From positions 1 through 55,509 of the forward strand of contig CANBER010000004.1 in assembly GCA_947367795.1 (NCBI GenBank): DNA of 55,509 bases. The letters run 5' to 3'. This document shows, piece by piece, positions 24,201 to 27,754 of this stretch. The position numbers and the translations under genes were made by a program. Source of the stretch: an uncultured Candidatus Saccharibacteria bacterium. Its GTDB lineage: Bacteria > Patescibacteriota > Saccharimonadia > Saccharimonadales > Saccharimonadaceae. Numbering within the stretch: the stretch's first letter is position 1; every line of letters begins with the position of its first letter. The notes beneath the pieces are model-generated. The model saw only the letters and a program-made list of their open reading frames with translations, was not told the origin of the DNA and searched no databases.

Positions 24201-24315
24201 GGGTAAATATCATATTTTGTAGGTATTTTCAATGCTTATGTTTATTGATGGATGGTGAGGGGAGAATGTGGCGGAAAATGTGGATTTTTTGGGGGATTTA
24301 TAGTAAGATGTGGGT

Positions 24316-25065
24316 ATGAAGCAGAAGTTTTTGGGGTTTTTGGGAACGATTTTGATTGCGGGGGCAGCGATAGTGATGGCCGTACCGACGCCGGTGATGG
24401 CGACACCTGGGGATGGAAATTGTAATAAACCGAATTTTTTAGGGATGAAGCCGTGGTACGCTGGATTGTGCGATAGTAATGATGAGATTAGAAAACCAAA
24501 TGGTGAGACAGAATTAATACGATTTGTGTGGACGATTGCACTGAACGTATTGGTGGATTTGCTGGTGGTCGTAGGGTATCTGGCACTGGGGTTTGTGATT
24601 TATGGCGGATTTCAATACATGACCTCGCAGGGTGATCCTGGAAGGGCGGCCAGAGGTCAGAAAACGTTGACATCGGCGATTATTGGGACAATTATTGCGA
24701 TGGTGTCTTCGGTGGCGGTGAATACAGTGAGAGTGATTTTGGGGATTAATGGTTCAGATGCGTGGGATCAGCCGGAGTTTGGTAAAGTGCAGCTACAAGA
24801 AGCGTTTAACTGGGCGTATACGGTGGCGGGGGTGATAGCAGTGGTGTTTATTATCAAAGGTGCGATGGATTATTTACTGTCGAAGGGTGATCCAGGTAAG
24901 GCGCGAAAGGGTACTCTAACGATTACTTATGCGATTATAGGGTTGGTGATTACGATTGTGGCGGCACTGATAACTAGTTTTGTGATTTCGGCGACAGGTG
25001 ACGCGATTGAGGAAGGTGAAAAAGACACGGTGACGATAATAATGGTAGAGGAGAAAGTAGGGTGA
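24316..25065 (+). CDS. pilin-like membrane protein with duplicated VirB2-type unit
   Basis: 249 residues from the ATG at 24316 (a GTG at 24310 is in frame). Signal peptide at about 1-30 ending PTPVMA. Two successive units each hold two membrane helices and a loop reading GDPGRAARGQKTL in the first unit and GDPGKARKGTL in the second, the same loop as in the three smaller genes downstream (GDAAKTK). It thus looks like a fused dimer of the pilin unit. VirB2-type proteins form the T4SS pilus or channel. It is divergent from the T4SS operon. Confidence 0.7.
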   Translation: MKQKFLGFLGTILIAGAAIVMAVPTPVMATPGDGNCNKPNFLGMKPWYAGLCDSNDEIRKPNGETELIRFVWTIALNVLVDLLVVVGYLALGFVIYGGFQYMTSQGDPGRAARGQKTLTSAIIGTIIAMVSSVAVNTVRVILGINGSDAWDQPEFGKVQLQEAFNWAYTVAGVIAVVFIIKGAMDYLLSKGDPGKARKGTLTITYAIIGLVITIVAALITSFVISATGDAIEEGEKDTVTIIMVEEKVG

Positions 25066-25457
25066 GAAAAGTGATTTTGGGGGTGATTTTAGGGATGATG
25101 TTGGTGGGGGGTGGATTATGGATGCGACCGGCTATGGCGGCGAATACGATTTGTGATGAGCCGGATAGTGTGTTTAGTAAAGAGGCGAAAGAGGCGGCGG
25201 GGTGTTTTGCGGATGATAAAAAGGATACGACAATTATACCGGTGGTGCATTTGATAATAAATGTGGTACTAAGTATTGTGGGGATTGTGGCAGTGTGTGT
25301 AATTGTGTATGCGGGTGTGACTTTTACGACGAGTATAGGGGATGCACGGAAGATTTATATGGCGAGACAGACTTTGTTGTATGGGGTAGTTGGTCTAGTA
25401 GTGGCGCTGCTGGCATATGCGATTGTGAACTTCGTGATAGCGAATATTAAGGTGTAA
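25062..25457 (+). CDS. VirB2-like pilin, paralogue 1
   Basis: 131 residues with a GTG start overlapping the previous stop by 4 nt. Signal peptide 1-27, a short Cys-containing mature N-terminus (two cysteines), then two membrane helices around the loop GDARKIYMARQTLLYG. Same architecture as the next two genes. A pilus or channel subunit is the likely role. Confidence 0.7.
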   Translation: MRKVILGVILGMMLVGGGLWMRPAMAANTICDEPDSVFSKEAKEAAGCFADDKKDTTIIPVVHLIINVVLSIVGIVAVCVIVYAGVTFTTSIGDARKIYMARQTLLYGVVGLVVALLAYAIVNFVIANIKV

Positions 25458-25556
25458 TGTGATAGTGTTTTAAGGTTATTTGACAGAAAGTGTATGGACA
25501 TATTGTGTAGAATACGTTAAACTAGTGGTAGTTATAGGTAATTGAAAGGAAAATCA

Positions 25557-25961
25557 ATGAAGAAAGTAATATTAAATGTTGTTGCTGCTGTATTGATGGT
25601 GTTGGGTCTTAACGTGGTGGCGACGATTGCGCCGGTAAGTGCTGTGACATGTGCTGATGGGTCAACTCAGACTAAGTTAGAGGACTGTAGTGAATGGTCT
25701 GGTGTTGGTGGGGTTGCTGATAATACAGATTTGATGAGTGTTTTGACTACCATTATTAATGTTGTGGTTGGTGTGGTAGGCTTTGTGGCTGTGGCGATGA
25801 TCGTAATGGGCGGTATCAGCTATGCTACGTCTCAGGGTGATGCAGCGAAGACGAAGAAAGGTATGAATACGATTCTCTACGGTGTGGTAGGCCTAGTGGT
25901 AGCACTATTGGCATTTGCAATTGTGAATTTCGTGCTTAGTAGTGTCTTTGGTACCAAATAA
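25557..25961 (+). CDS. VirB2-like pilin, paralogue 2
   Basis: 134 residues from the ATG at 25557, which has AAAGGA 7 nt upstream. Signal peptide about 1-28 ending APVSA, two cysteines in the mature N-terminus, two membrane helices flanking GDAAKTKKGMNTILYG. Very close to paralogue 3 in the helices but different in the exposed N-terminal loop. Confidence 0.72.
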   Translation: MKKVILNVVAAVLMVLGLNVVATIAPVSAVTCADGSTQTKLEDCSEWSGVGGVADNTDLMSVLTTIINVVVGVVGFVAVAMIVMGGISYATSQGDAAKTKKGMNTILYGVVGLVVALLAFAIVNFVLSSVFGTK

Positions 25962-26004
25962 GGTTTTGCTAGTCTTAATGTAAGAGAGATTGGAGGAGGT
26001 AGAG

Positions 26005-26484
26005 ATGAAGTTGAAAGCCTTGGTGCTGGCGGGGGTATTGGCGGTGAGTGGCATGATCGGAGTGTTTGGTGCGGTGGATACGTATGCAGTAGTGACGTGT
26101 CCGACTGGTTCATTGCAGCAGACAGCGGATAGTCTGGCGGAGTGTAATTTACCCTCAACTGAAACACAGGATGATAAGAAGCTGATGAATACTGTGGTCA
26201 CAATCTTAAACGTAGTGATCGGGGTGGTCGGTATAATTACAGTGGCGATGATCGTGATCGGGGGTGTGTTTTATACGACATCAATTGGTGATGCAGCCAA
26301 GACGAAGCGCGCGATGCATACGATTTTGTATGGAATTGTGGGGTTAGTGATTTGTCTCTTGGCGTTTGCGATTGTGAATTTTGTGCTTAGCTCAGTGTTT
26401 GGTGGCGGAACGGCGACCGATAAGGATGCAAATAAGGACAAAAAGACAAATGGATATGTCCGTATGATTGATGATTTGGCCTAA
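26005..26484 (+). CDS. VirB2-like pilin, paralogue 3
   Basis: 159 residues from the ATG at 26005 (GGAGGAGG upstream). Signal peptide about 1-28, two cysteines, two membrane helices flanking GDAAKTKRAMHTILYG, plus a Lys/Asp-rich C-terminal extension (about 138-159) that the other paralogues lack. Last of the tandem array; a hairpin follows the stop. Confidence 0.72.
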   Translation: MKLKALVLAGVLAVSGMIGVFGAVDTYAVVTCPTGSLQQTADSLAECNLPSTETQDDKKLMNTVVTILNVVIGVVGIITVAMIVIGGVFYTTSIGDAAKTKRAMHTILYGIVGLVICLLAFAIVNFVLSSVFGGGTATDKDANKDKKTNGYVRMIDDLA

Positions 26485-26501: not shown

Positions 26502-26530
26502 GAAAATATCGCTCGGAAGGGCGATATTTC
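26502..26530 (+). terminator. hairpin ending the pilin array
   Basis: AAATATCGC pairs with GCGATATTT (9 bp, loop TCGGAAGG), 18 nt after the last pilin stop. It lacks a strong T-tract, so termination may be partial. Confidence 0.55.
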
Positions 26531-26870
26531 CGTATCTAGCTCCCCTCTTCCTCACTTTGGCATGAATAACCTAATGTGTACTAACTAGGGCTTTCTTGTC
26601 GCTTCGCTCCTGCTCCTTGCTCGTCGTCTCGGAAGAGGATGCAAGCATCCTCTTCTCTCGTCTCCTCCAAGGTTCGGGGCGCGTCGTCAGCGCCTGCCGG
26701 AGCAGGGCTGACGCGCTCTTCCTCACTTCGACTACGCGTGCGCACATTGCTGAACGCAATGTTGGCGCACGCTCGTACGTTCCGGATCCCCTCGAAAGTC
26801 CTAGTTAGTACACACTACACTATCTCATCCAAACTGGGGAAGAGAGGGCTAGATACGAAATACCGAGCTC
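26531..26870. repeat. long imperfect inverted repeat enclosing three internal hairpins (no gene)
   Basis: The left arm (about 26531-26595) and right arm (about 26794-26863) are inverted copies with short mismatched stretches; outer ends both read CGTATCTAGC. Between them are three nearly perfect hairpins: GAAGAGGATGC-AA-GCATCCTCTTC (26632-26655), a GC-rich one around 26679-26715 (GCGCGTC to GACGCGC) and one around 26737-26772 (GCGTGCGC to GCGCACGC). The whole could be an RNA with a long closing helix or a miniature transposon-like element. A 25-30 nt word beginning GAAAG(Y)CCTAGTTRGTACA occurs inverted at 26568-26595 and direct at 26794-26824 and 26887-26916. No convincing coding frame. Confidence 0.6.
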
Positions 26871-26896: not shown

Positions 26897-27121
26897 TTGG
26901 TACATACTATACTATCCTTCGTCCGTAGTGGGTTTATTGATTTAGAATATGCCCTGCTAAAGCGTCTTGGCAGCAATACCTATATCTGGTCATCGGTTTT
27001 GTTTGGGGAAGTTTCTACAACTGCAGCACGCGTTCTTGCTATAACGTCCTCTAGAGTCTACTCATCAAATGGTCCTAACCCCCGTTACTACGGTTTCCCC
27101 CTCCGCTGCCTAGCCTATTAG
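26897..27121 (+). pseudogene. FISUMP-like C-terminal cassette 1 (no start, promoterless)
   Basis: The frame reads LSFVRSGFIDLEYALLKRLG, then the aromatic core TYIWSS, and ends RYYGFPLRCLAY and a stop. This is the C-terminal part of the Fibrobacter succinogenes major paralogous (FISUMP) type domain, whose usual ending is YWSS...NPS...R..GFSVRC. A TAG stop directly precedes the TTG at 26897 and no ribosome site is visible, so it is a fragment. Its first 21 bp (26912-26932) and last 18 bp (27091-27108) recur inverted in cassette 2. Confidence 0.65.
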
Positions 27122-27345
27122 TTTATATATAGTGATGGGTGTCAGCGGAGGGGGAAACCGAACCAACGATGGTTCGGGCCGTACGACGGGTTGACGCCAG
27201 ACGCAGCGAAGGTGAGGCGGTACGCGGTAGCAGAAGTAACAGAGGTAAACGCCCGTGAAGCCGAAGACCAGCCGTAACCATTGAGGCCGAAGTACCTCAG
27301 AGAACTGCTGCTCAGATTGACCTGCCCACTACGGACGAAGGATAG
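26912..27345. repeat. nested perfect inverted repeats bounding two opposed cassettes
   Basis: Outer arms 26912-26932 and 27325-27345 are perfect 21 bp inverted copies (encoding LSFVRSG in each cassette). Inner arms 27091-27108 and 27143-27160 are perfect 18 bp inverted copies (encoding GFPLR). The DNA between outer and inner arms (about 160 bp) differs strongly between the cassettes. A 34 bp AT-rich spacer separates them. Confidence 0.85.
27142..27345 (-). pseudogene. FISUMP-like C-terminal cassette 2, inverted
   Basis: Read leftward the frame is SFVRSGQVNLSSSSLRYFG, then GYGWSS, AYRLTF, GVNPS, HRWFGFPLR and TGA. It is a canonical FISUMP C-terminus (YWSS and NPS positions kept), better conserved than cassette 1, but it stops one codon before the usual C-x-x-x tail. 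The frame stays open upstream to about 27455 without an ATG or ribosome site. Confidence 0.65.
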
Positions 27346-27382
27346 AGGAGGTGAGGCTATAGTTTGATAATAAATATTGCGA

Positions 27383-27754
27383 ATGAAGTTAGGGAAGGAT
27401 TTGGAGACGGGAGTACCTTTGGCGAAGGAGGATGGGTTCTTCGCTTTGGCAAAGGCTTATGGTTGGATAGATGCGGATGATGATTGGTTGTTCGTAGAGG
27501 CGGAAACGAGCGCTTATGCAGAGGTACCTTCGGGGAGCCTGTCTTTAAGCCCATTTCATTTTGTGAATGTAGGGATAATTGCGATAGATCGAGGATCTTT
27601 GAGATACTTGGGGACAACTGGGTTTTATCGTTCGGCGACGGTGGCGATAAATAATCGTTCGGATTTCGATTTGCAGACTTCGGGTGGAAGATTCCGGCCA
27701 GCGTATGTGTTCCCGCGGAGGGATGGACATATTTTACGTTGTATTGCAAAATGA
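27383..27754 (+). pseudogene. truncated FISUMP-domain protein fragment
   Basis: 123 residues from an ATG at 27383. The C-terminal half (FVNVGIIAIDRGSLRYLG, GFYRSA, then PRRDGHILRCIAK) aligns with the FISUMP end; the N-terminal half (KLGKDLETGVPLAKEDGF...) is not recognised. No ribosome site, no signal peptide, and the frame is closed immediately upstream by TAA next to the inverted-repeat edge, so this is probably the 3' remainder of a longer surface-protein gene rather than a complete gene. Confidence 0.5.

Follow-up and report, generated by a model that had tools for sequence, protein, structure and literature searches.

Diversity-generating retroelements (DGRs) are known as writers without memory, in which each retrohoming event erases the previous variant, and gene conversion from silent cassettes is known from the pilS/pilE, msp2 and tprK systems. 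Saccharibacteria are small host-dependent bacteria, some species of which live in people. DGRs have been reported from Patescibacteria, in cellular DGR clade 2 (Roux 2021, PMC8144416). In cyanobacteria, all remote variable repeats (VRs) found were close to the 3′ end of C-lectin genes (PMC7517822), and remote target genes have also been described for the trans-acting DGRs of Thiohalocapsa PB-PSB1 (PMC10907252). According to the MetaCSST survey, 92.6% of VRs overlap ORFs, and an example with 21 VRs has them inside one gene (PMC6642488). In the open-licence literature, we did not find a description of start-less VRs spread over a genome; an earlier account elsewhere is possible.

Here, we analyzed a 55,509-nucleotide stretch of DNA (the window), which is contig C4 of a Candidatus Saccharibacteria MAG of 860,540 bp in 38 contigs (G000, hereafter the source genome). 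It contains two opposed cassettes. These are probably silent VRs of a DGR, in a system where the DGR writes variants and gene conversion moves them between an archive and one expressed surface gene.

A head-to-head cassette pair

The sequence-only reading of the window had pointed to two alternative C-termini of a FISUMP-like surface domain, and had offered three explanations for them: an invertible shufflon segment, silent donor cassettes for gene conversion, or a DGR relict. Its description of the pair was borne out (Table 1). The 21-bp inverted arms are exact, the inner 18-bp word CGGTTTCCCCCTCCGCTG is also exact, closing the left cassette at 27108 and opening the right one at 27143, and both cassettes read LSFVRSG...GFPLR. 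Their interiors are very different: a gapped alignment gives 51% identity, with the left core two codons (6 nt) shorter than the right. Neither cassette has a credible start, the upstream frames being 5 and 37 codons long and not homologous to the protein. The FISUMP assignment is right for the family, since full-length proteins from the source genome and one relative match TIGR02145, with scores of 34-36 bits, just under the cut-off of 41.65. The pair is not a product of chance: 53 complete cores in the genome share the end words, 25 of them with the exact 21-mer. The FISUMP fragment that adjoins the pair is without cassette end words and is perhaps a decayed paralogue.

Table 1. Features of the cassette pair in the window and of the retroelement on contig C9 of the source genome.
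Feature	Position	Strand	Remarks
Left silent VR cassette, LSFVRSG...YYGFPLRCLAY*	26912..27121	+	5′ word 26912-26932, 3′ word 27091-27108, stop 27119-27121
Spacer between the two cassette 3′ ends	27109..27142	.	34 bp; contains the CCTAGCCTATTAGTTTATATATAGT trailer (CLAY* and downstream), found after many cassettes
Right silent VR cassette, LSFVRSG...HRWFGFPLR	27143..27345	-	Inverted arm 27325-27345, stop immediately after the cassette; recent VR of the C9 template repeat
Right-cassette leader (IASPP coded just 5′ of the VR word)	27346..27393	-	48 nt; 96% match before the first cassette of the C36 tandem array
5′-truncated FISUMP C-terminal fragment, 125 aa, ends RCIAK*	27377..27754	+	ORF; FISUMP profile A1 positions 444-564, E=1e-7
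Reverse transcriptase	C9:33781-34929		RVT_1, sole RVT_1 in the source genome
Template repeat (TR)	C9:35268-35479		Asn at nearly every variable position, mostly AAC

Two other features of this part of the window were recorded. A separate, dispersed MITE-like element at 26522-26865 has terminal inverted repeats of ~75 bp at 83%, with further copies at the ends of contigs C36, C28, C33 and C31, and the leader of the left cassette resembles one end of it. Upstream of the cassettes, 24310-26484 encodes a row of four small proteins, secreted or membrane-bound, that are alike in build (pilin or VirB2-like).

The retroelement and its templates

The window was correctly stated to lack a reverse transcriptase (RT), and a search beyond it identified one of DGR type on contig C9. 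There, the gene order is a 339-aa Avd-like gene, the RT and the TR. The assignment of the RT is by profile matches: it matches phrog_1423 at 5e-70, and its best profile match is PDB 8ub7, the BPP-1 DGR reverse transcriptase, at 2.7e-38; the next match reaches 6e-11, and group II and retron RTs are far behind. Its nearest named relatives are in uncultured Candidatus Saccharibacteria MAGs. The Avd-like gene lies directly upstream of the RT and is kept in relatives. The helical part of its product matched Avd 4dwl (prob 0.99, TMt 0.68) and S23-type four-helix bundles, with Foldseek E-values of 0.009-0.2; judged by its fold, the product is a putative Avd-type accessory protein.

Adenine-biased rewriting was evident in two genomes. 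In the 16 cassettes closest to the TR, 312/608 adenine sites are changed, compared with 142/2576 other sites (p~1e-146), and in the sister species G024, compared with its five TRs, 110/385 adenines and 94/1585 other bases are changed (p~1e-31). Within the window, the right cassette is changed at 16/38 adenines and 8/161 other bases relative to the C9 TR (Fisher p=4e-8), whereas the left one shows no adenine bias (17/35 A and 59/157 non-A changed) and its product has 51% amino acid identity with that of the TR. The left cassette is either an old, diverged VR or a VR from a since-lost template. These results uphold one half of the proposed DGR relict: the DGR is confirmed, but it is not a relict, because the RT, the Avd-like gene and the TR are intact and the close cassettes are strongly adenine-biased.

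Ten TRs were found in five genomes, and all ten are followed by the exact word CGCGGTTCGGTGCCGATC, which also served to find them; VRs are without it. A conserved 5′ RNA element, AAAGATCGTGAAGTT, precedes the TRs, and its helix GAAGTT/AACTTC is kept through a compensatory double change in one copy. An Rfam search with the template RNA gave no match. The five TRs of G024 lie apart from one another and from the RT. With several templates in one genome, diverged cassettes can descend from other templates, and because some TRs are far from any RT, templates seem to act in trans.

A dispersed cassette family

Searching the source genome with the window fragment yielded 109 matches over the genome. 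In the stretches around them we counted 52 complete cassettes, which with the TR make 53 complete cores, plus many fragments at contig ends. Roughly 70 silent, start-less VR copies are scattered genome-wide. Both strands carry such copies, which are arranged as single units, as a tandem array (C36) or as head-to-head pairs; nearly all are intergenic. No long ORF in this genome is joined to a cassette, the longest in-frame upstream stretch being 76 codons and unlike the protein, and none of the five FISUMP genes recovered with PF09603 carries the cassette end words. A hairpin-like sequence, ACGTTTTTGAAAAACGTAA, recurs downstream of several of these cassettes (C1:37715+, C1:89+, C1:663-, C5:43819-, C10:18664+ and C11:1474-).

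This arrangement bears on the shufflon proposed earlier, in which the 21-bp arms would be recombination sites and the pair would invert as a unit. The perfect inverted arms and the two alternative C-termini head to head are what suggested it. However, the same words end every cassette, whether paired, tandem or single, and inverting the pair would join neither cassette to a gene. Most members of the family, which occupies both strands genome-wide, are unpaired or tandem, and adenine bias together with copying explains the pair. Inversion is unsupported rather than refuted at this site; we consider it extremely unlikely.

Of the 75 contig ends of the source genome, 27 lie inside a cassette. Several pairs of ends have exactly 77 nt in common and differ in their leaders, which is what VRs present at more than one site should produce. 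Cassette dispersal would help explain the poor assembly of such a MAG. Conversely, poor assembly might make an ordinary multi-target DGR look like a dispersed family by seemingly breaking its target genes, a reading in line with the many cassettes that end contigs and with G056, a sister lineage in the same genus with a more distant RT, in which VR-like domains lie inside genes of 532-613 aa, the usual DGR layout. Yet many cassettes are mid-contig, as in the window, with unrelated DNA upstream, and in G024 one listed cassette is in a full-length gene and the rest are mostly in frames of 70-240 aa. Broken target genes are thus a hardly credible explanation, and the usual layout in G056 suggests that the silent archive is a property of one lineage.

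Matches to the VR-type domain, counted with fragments, templates and a few full genes, numbered 78 in the source genome and 128, 87, 80, 79 and 77 in five sister genomes of the same genus (G024, G043, G040, G013 and G251, respectively). A 612-aa frame over a cassette in G251 proved to be no more than a chance join to another gene.

Preservation of the reading frame

All cores are open in one frame, 53/53 in the source genome and 70/70 in G024, counts that include the templates and the G024 target. Core lengths differ by multiples of three, with one 147-nt exception in G024 that looks like a spurious inner match to an end word and is still open. Openness extends to the diverged members: 23/23 cores with >20% non-adenine divergence are open, where 4.2 would be expected under unconstrained substitution. 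We attribute the keeping of a frame in start-less DNA to passage of its content through an expressed gene, as there is no other reason to keep it. In a weaker form of this argument, which weighs against our main reading, the frame could persist because cassettes are young copies of a selected sequence and not through use; both forms need exchange with an expressed gene.

The frame also bears on the possibility that the cassettes are functionless debris, left by off-target insertion of DGR cDNA or by duplication of gene ends, and now drifting. Precise, VR-sized, start-less units on both strands of intergenic DNA would be natural products of such a process, and so would the non-adenine divergence from the TR, which forms a continuous gradient from 1% to about 60% ungapped. 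However, 0/123 cores contain a frameshift or stop, the end words have remained intact despite divergence of the interior, about 77-128 matches occur in each of five sister genomes, and an expressed gene and a silent cassette have an exact VR in common (see below). We therefore regard drifting debris as unlikely. The trailer was considered as a marker of activity: trailer-bearing cassettes look younger, and the difference is not significant (p=0.09).

Copying between silent and expressed VRs

A full-length gene ending in the cassette words, which the sequence-only reading had proposed to look for, was not found in the source genome, where the contig ends (C19:1) before the probable target gene reaches its VR. 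Such a gene does exist in G024, in which C27 carries an intact 620-aa target gene with the VR at its end. A VR at the C-terminus of the target gene, as in DGRs, is present in this gene and in the G043 gene on C20. The full-length target proteins are FISUMP by sequence comparison; the AlphaFold2 model of the target domain has a pLDDT of 36. Start-less in-frame cassettes thus coexist with one expression site, as in vls-type systems.

The VR of the G024 target and a silent cassette of the same genome (C19:7633-7842, minus strand) have about 200 nt of identical sequence. The flanks of the two are unrelated, and beyond the end words on either side the identity is lost. With 117 differences separating the common VR from the nearest template, the two copies cannot both be products of retrohoming from any template seen here. 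This is the one case of expressed/silent VR identity that we found. G024 also has a second, 5′-truncated copy of the target gene end beside ldh, in which the trailer and the 155 nt upstream of the VR show 100% identity to the target, whereas 119 of about 190 positions differ between the two VRs. Identical flanks with differing VRs indicate that the flanks are a recent duplicate and that the VR has been exchanged since. In G043, the target VR, cut by a contig end after 89 nt, differs from the TR at adenines only. Taken together, the exact copy in G024 and the adenine-only changes in G043 indicate that template rewriting and the copying of ready-made VRs both reach the expressed gene within this species group.

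Truncated target copies stand divergent beside ldh in two species (C15:23895-24800 in the source genome and C24:16901-17821 in G024), each matching its own species' target; in the source genome, the fragment shares its last 77 nt with the probable target gene. No such copy was present in G043, G040, G251, G013 and the other relatives checked, so that conserved synteny is only suggestive.

The direction of copying can be approached through the same gene. Silent cassettes might only receive sequence from the expressed gene, by archiving or passive conversion, and never be re-used: the VR identities fit either direction, and the leader and trailer of many cassettes look like the 3′ end of the target gene. 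One-way gene conversion, however, has no known reason here, and the G024 target matches the ldh copy in leader and trailer but a third locus in its VR, a combination that looks from these alignments like the result of import into the gene, with a mixture of populations in the MAG being possible. Purely outward copying is, in our view, very unlikely. Among the three explanations first offered, silent donor cassettes for gene conversion are best supported, because the expressed VR of G024 is an exact copy of a silent cassette; copying would run from the archive to the expression site. MAGs can mix strains, and the silent and expressed copies may lie in different cells, which also weighs against the main reading.

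Discussion

We propose the following mechanism. In a first step, the DGR reverse transcriptase would copy the template RNA, making errors at adenines, and the resulting cDNA would replace a VR; this VR could belong to the expressed FISUMP surface gene or to a silent cassette. Some 70 copies, each a VR with a few flanking bases and without start signals, are stored in intergenic DNA. The invariant end words, TTCGTCCGTAGTGG and TTCCCCxTCCGC, would then anchor gene conversion, by which entire VRs are copied between the silent cassettes and the one full-length gene; this would switch the exposed binding domain and thereby vary the cell surface. The end words may thus have two plausible jobs, as homing signals of the retroelement and as homology anchors for gene conversion. 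With the balance close to even, we suggest a two-step system in which a retroelement writes random variants of a binding domain into a genome-wide library of tens to >100 silent in-frame cassettes, from which recombination takes complete variants into one expressed surface gene.

If this is true, a silent in-frame archive linked to an expressed gene would add memory and re-use to DGRs and would join two mechanisms known separately, adenine mutagenesis and cassette gene conversion, in a lineage that both invents and remembers binding specificities. It bears on how a minimal host-dependent cell keeps pace with its host or with phages, and the cassettes offer a natural record of past retrohoming products.

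Like canonical DGRs, which include the Bordetella phage BPP-1 type and cellular DGR clade 2 of Patescibacteria (PMC8144416), the system described here has a DGR-type RT, an Avd-like partner, a TR, adenine-directed VR variation and a VR at the 3′ end of a surface gene; it differs from them in its tens of start-less intergenic VRs, in up to five dispersed template RNAs per genome (G024) and in VR-to-VR copying. It shares with cyanobacteria (PMC7517822) and Thiohalocapsa PB-PSB1 (PMC10907252) VRs that are far from the RT and probably diversified in trans, but the remote VRs of those systems are in genes, whereas nearly all VRs here are without a gene. Similarly, the multi-VR DGRs of the MetaCSST survey (PMC6642488) combine one TR with sometimes many VR copies, and again it is the location of nearly all VRs outside genes that sets the present family apart. 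The likeness to Borrelia vlsE (PMC11499132) consists in one expression site, promoter-less in-frame cassettes, conserved ends and segmental copying; in contrast to vlsE-type systems, the cassettes here occur throughout the chromosome and are renewed by a mutagenic retroelement.
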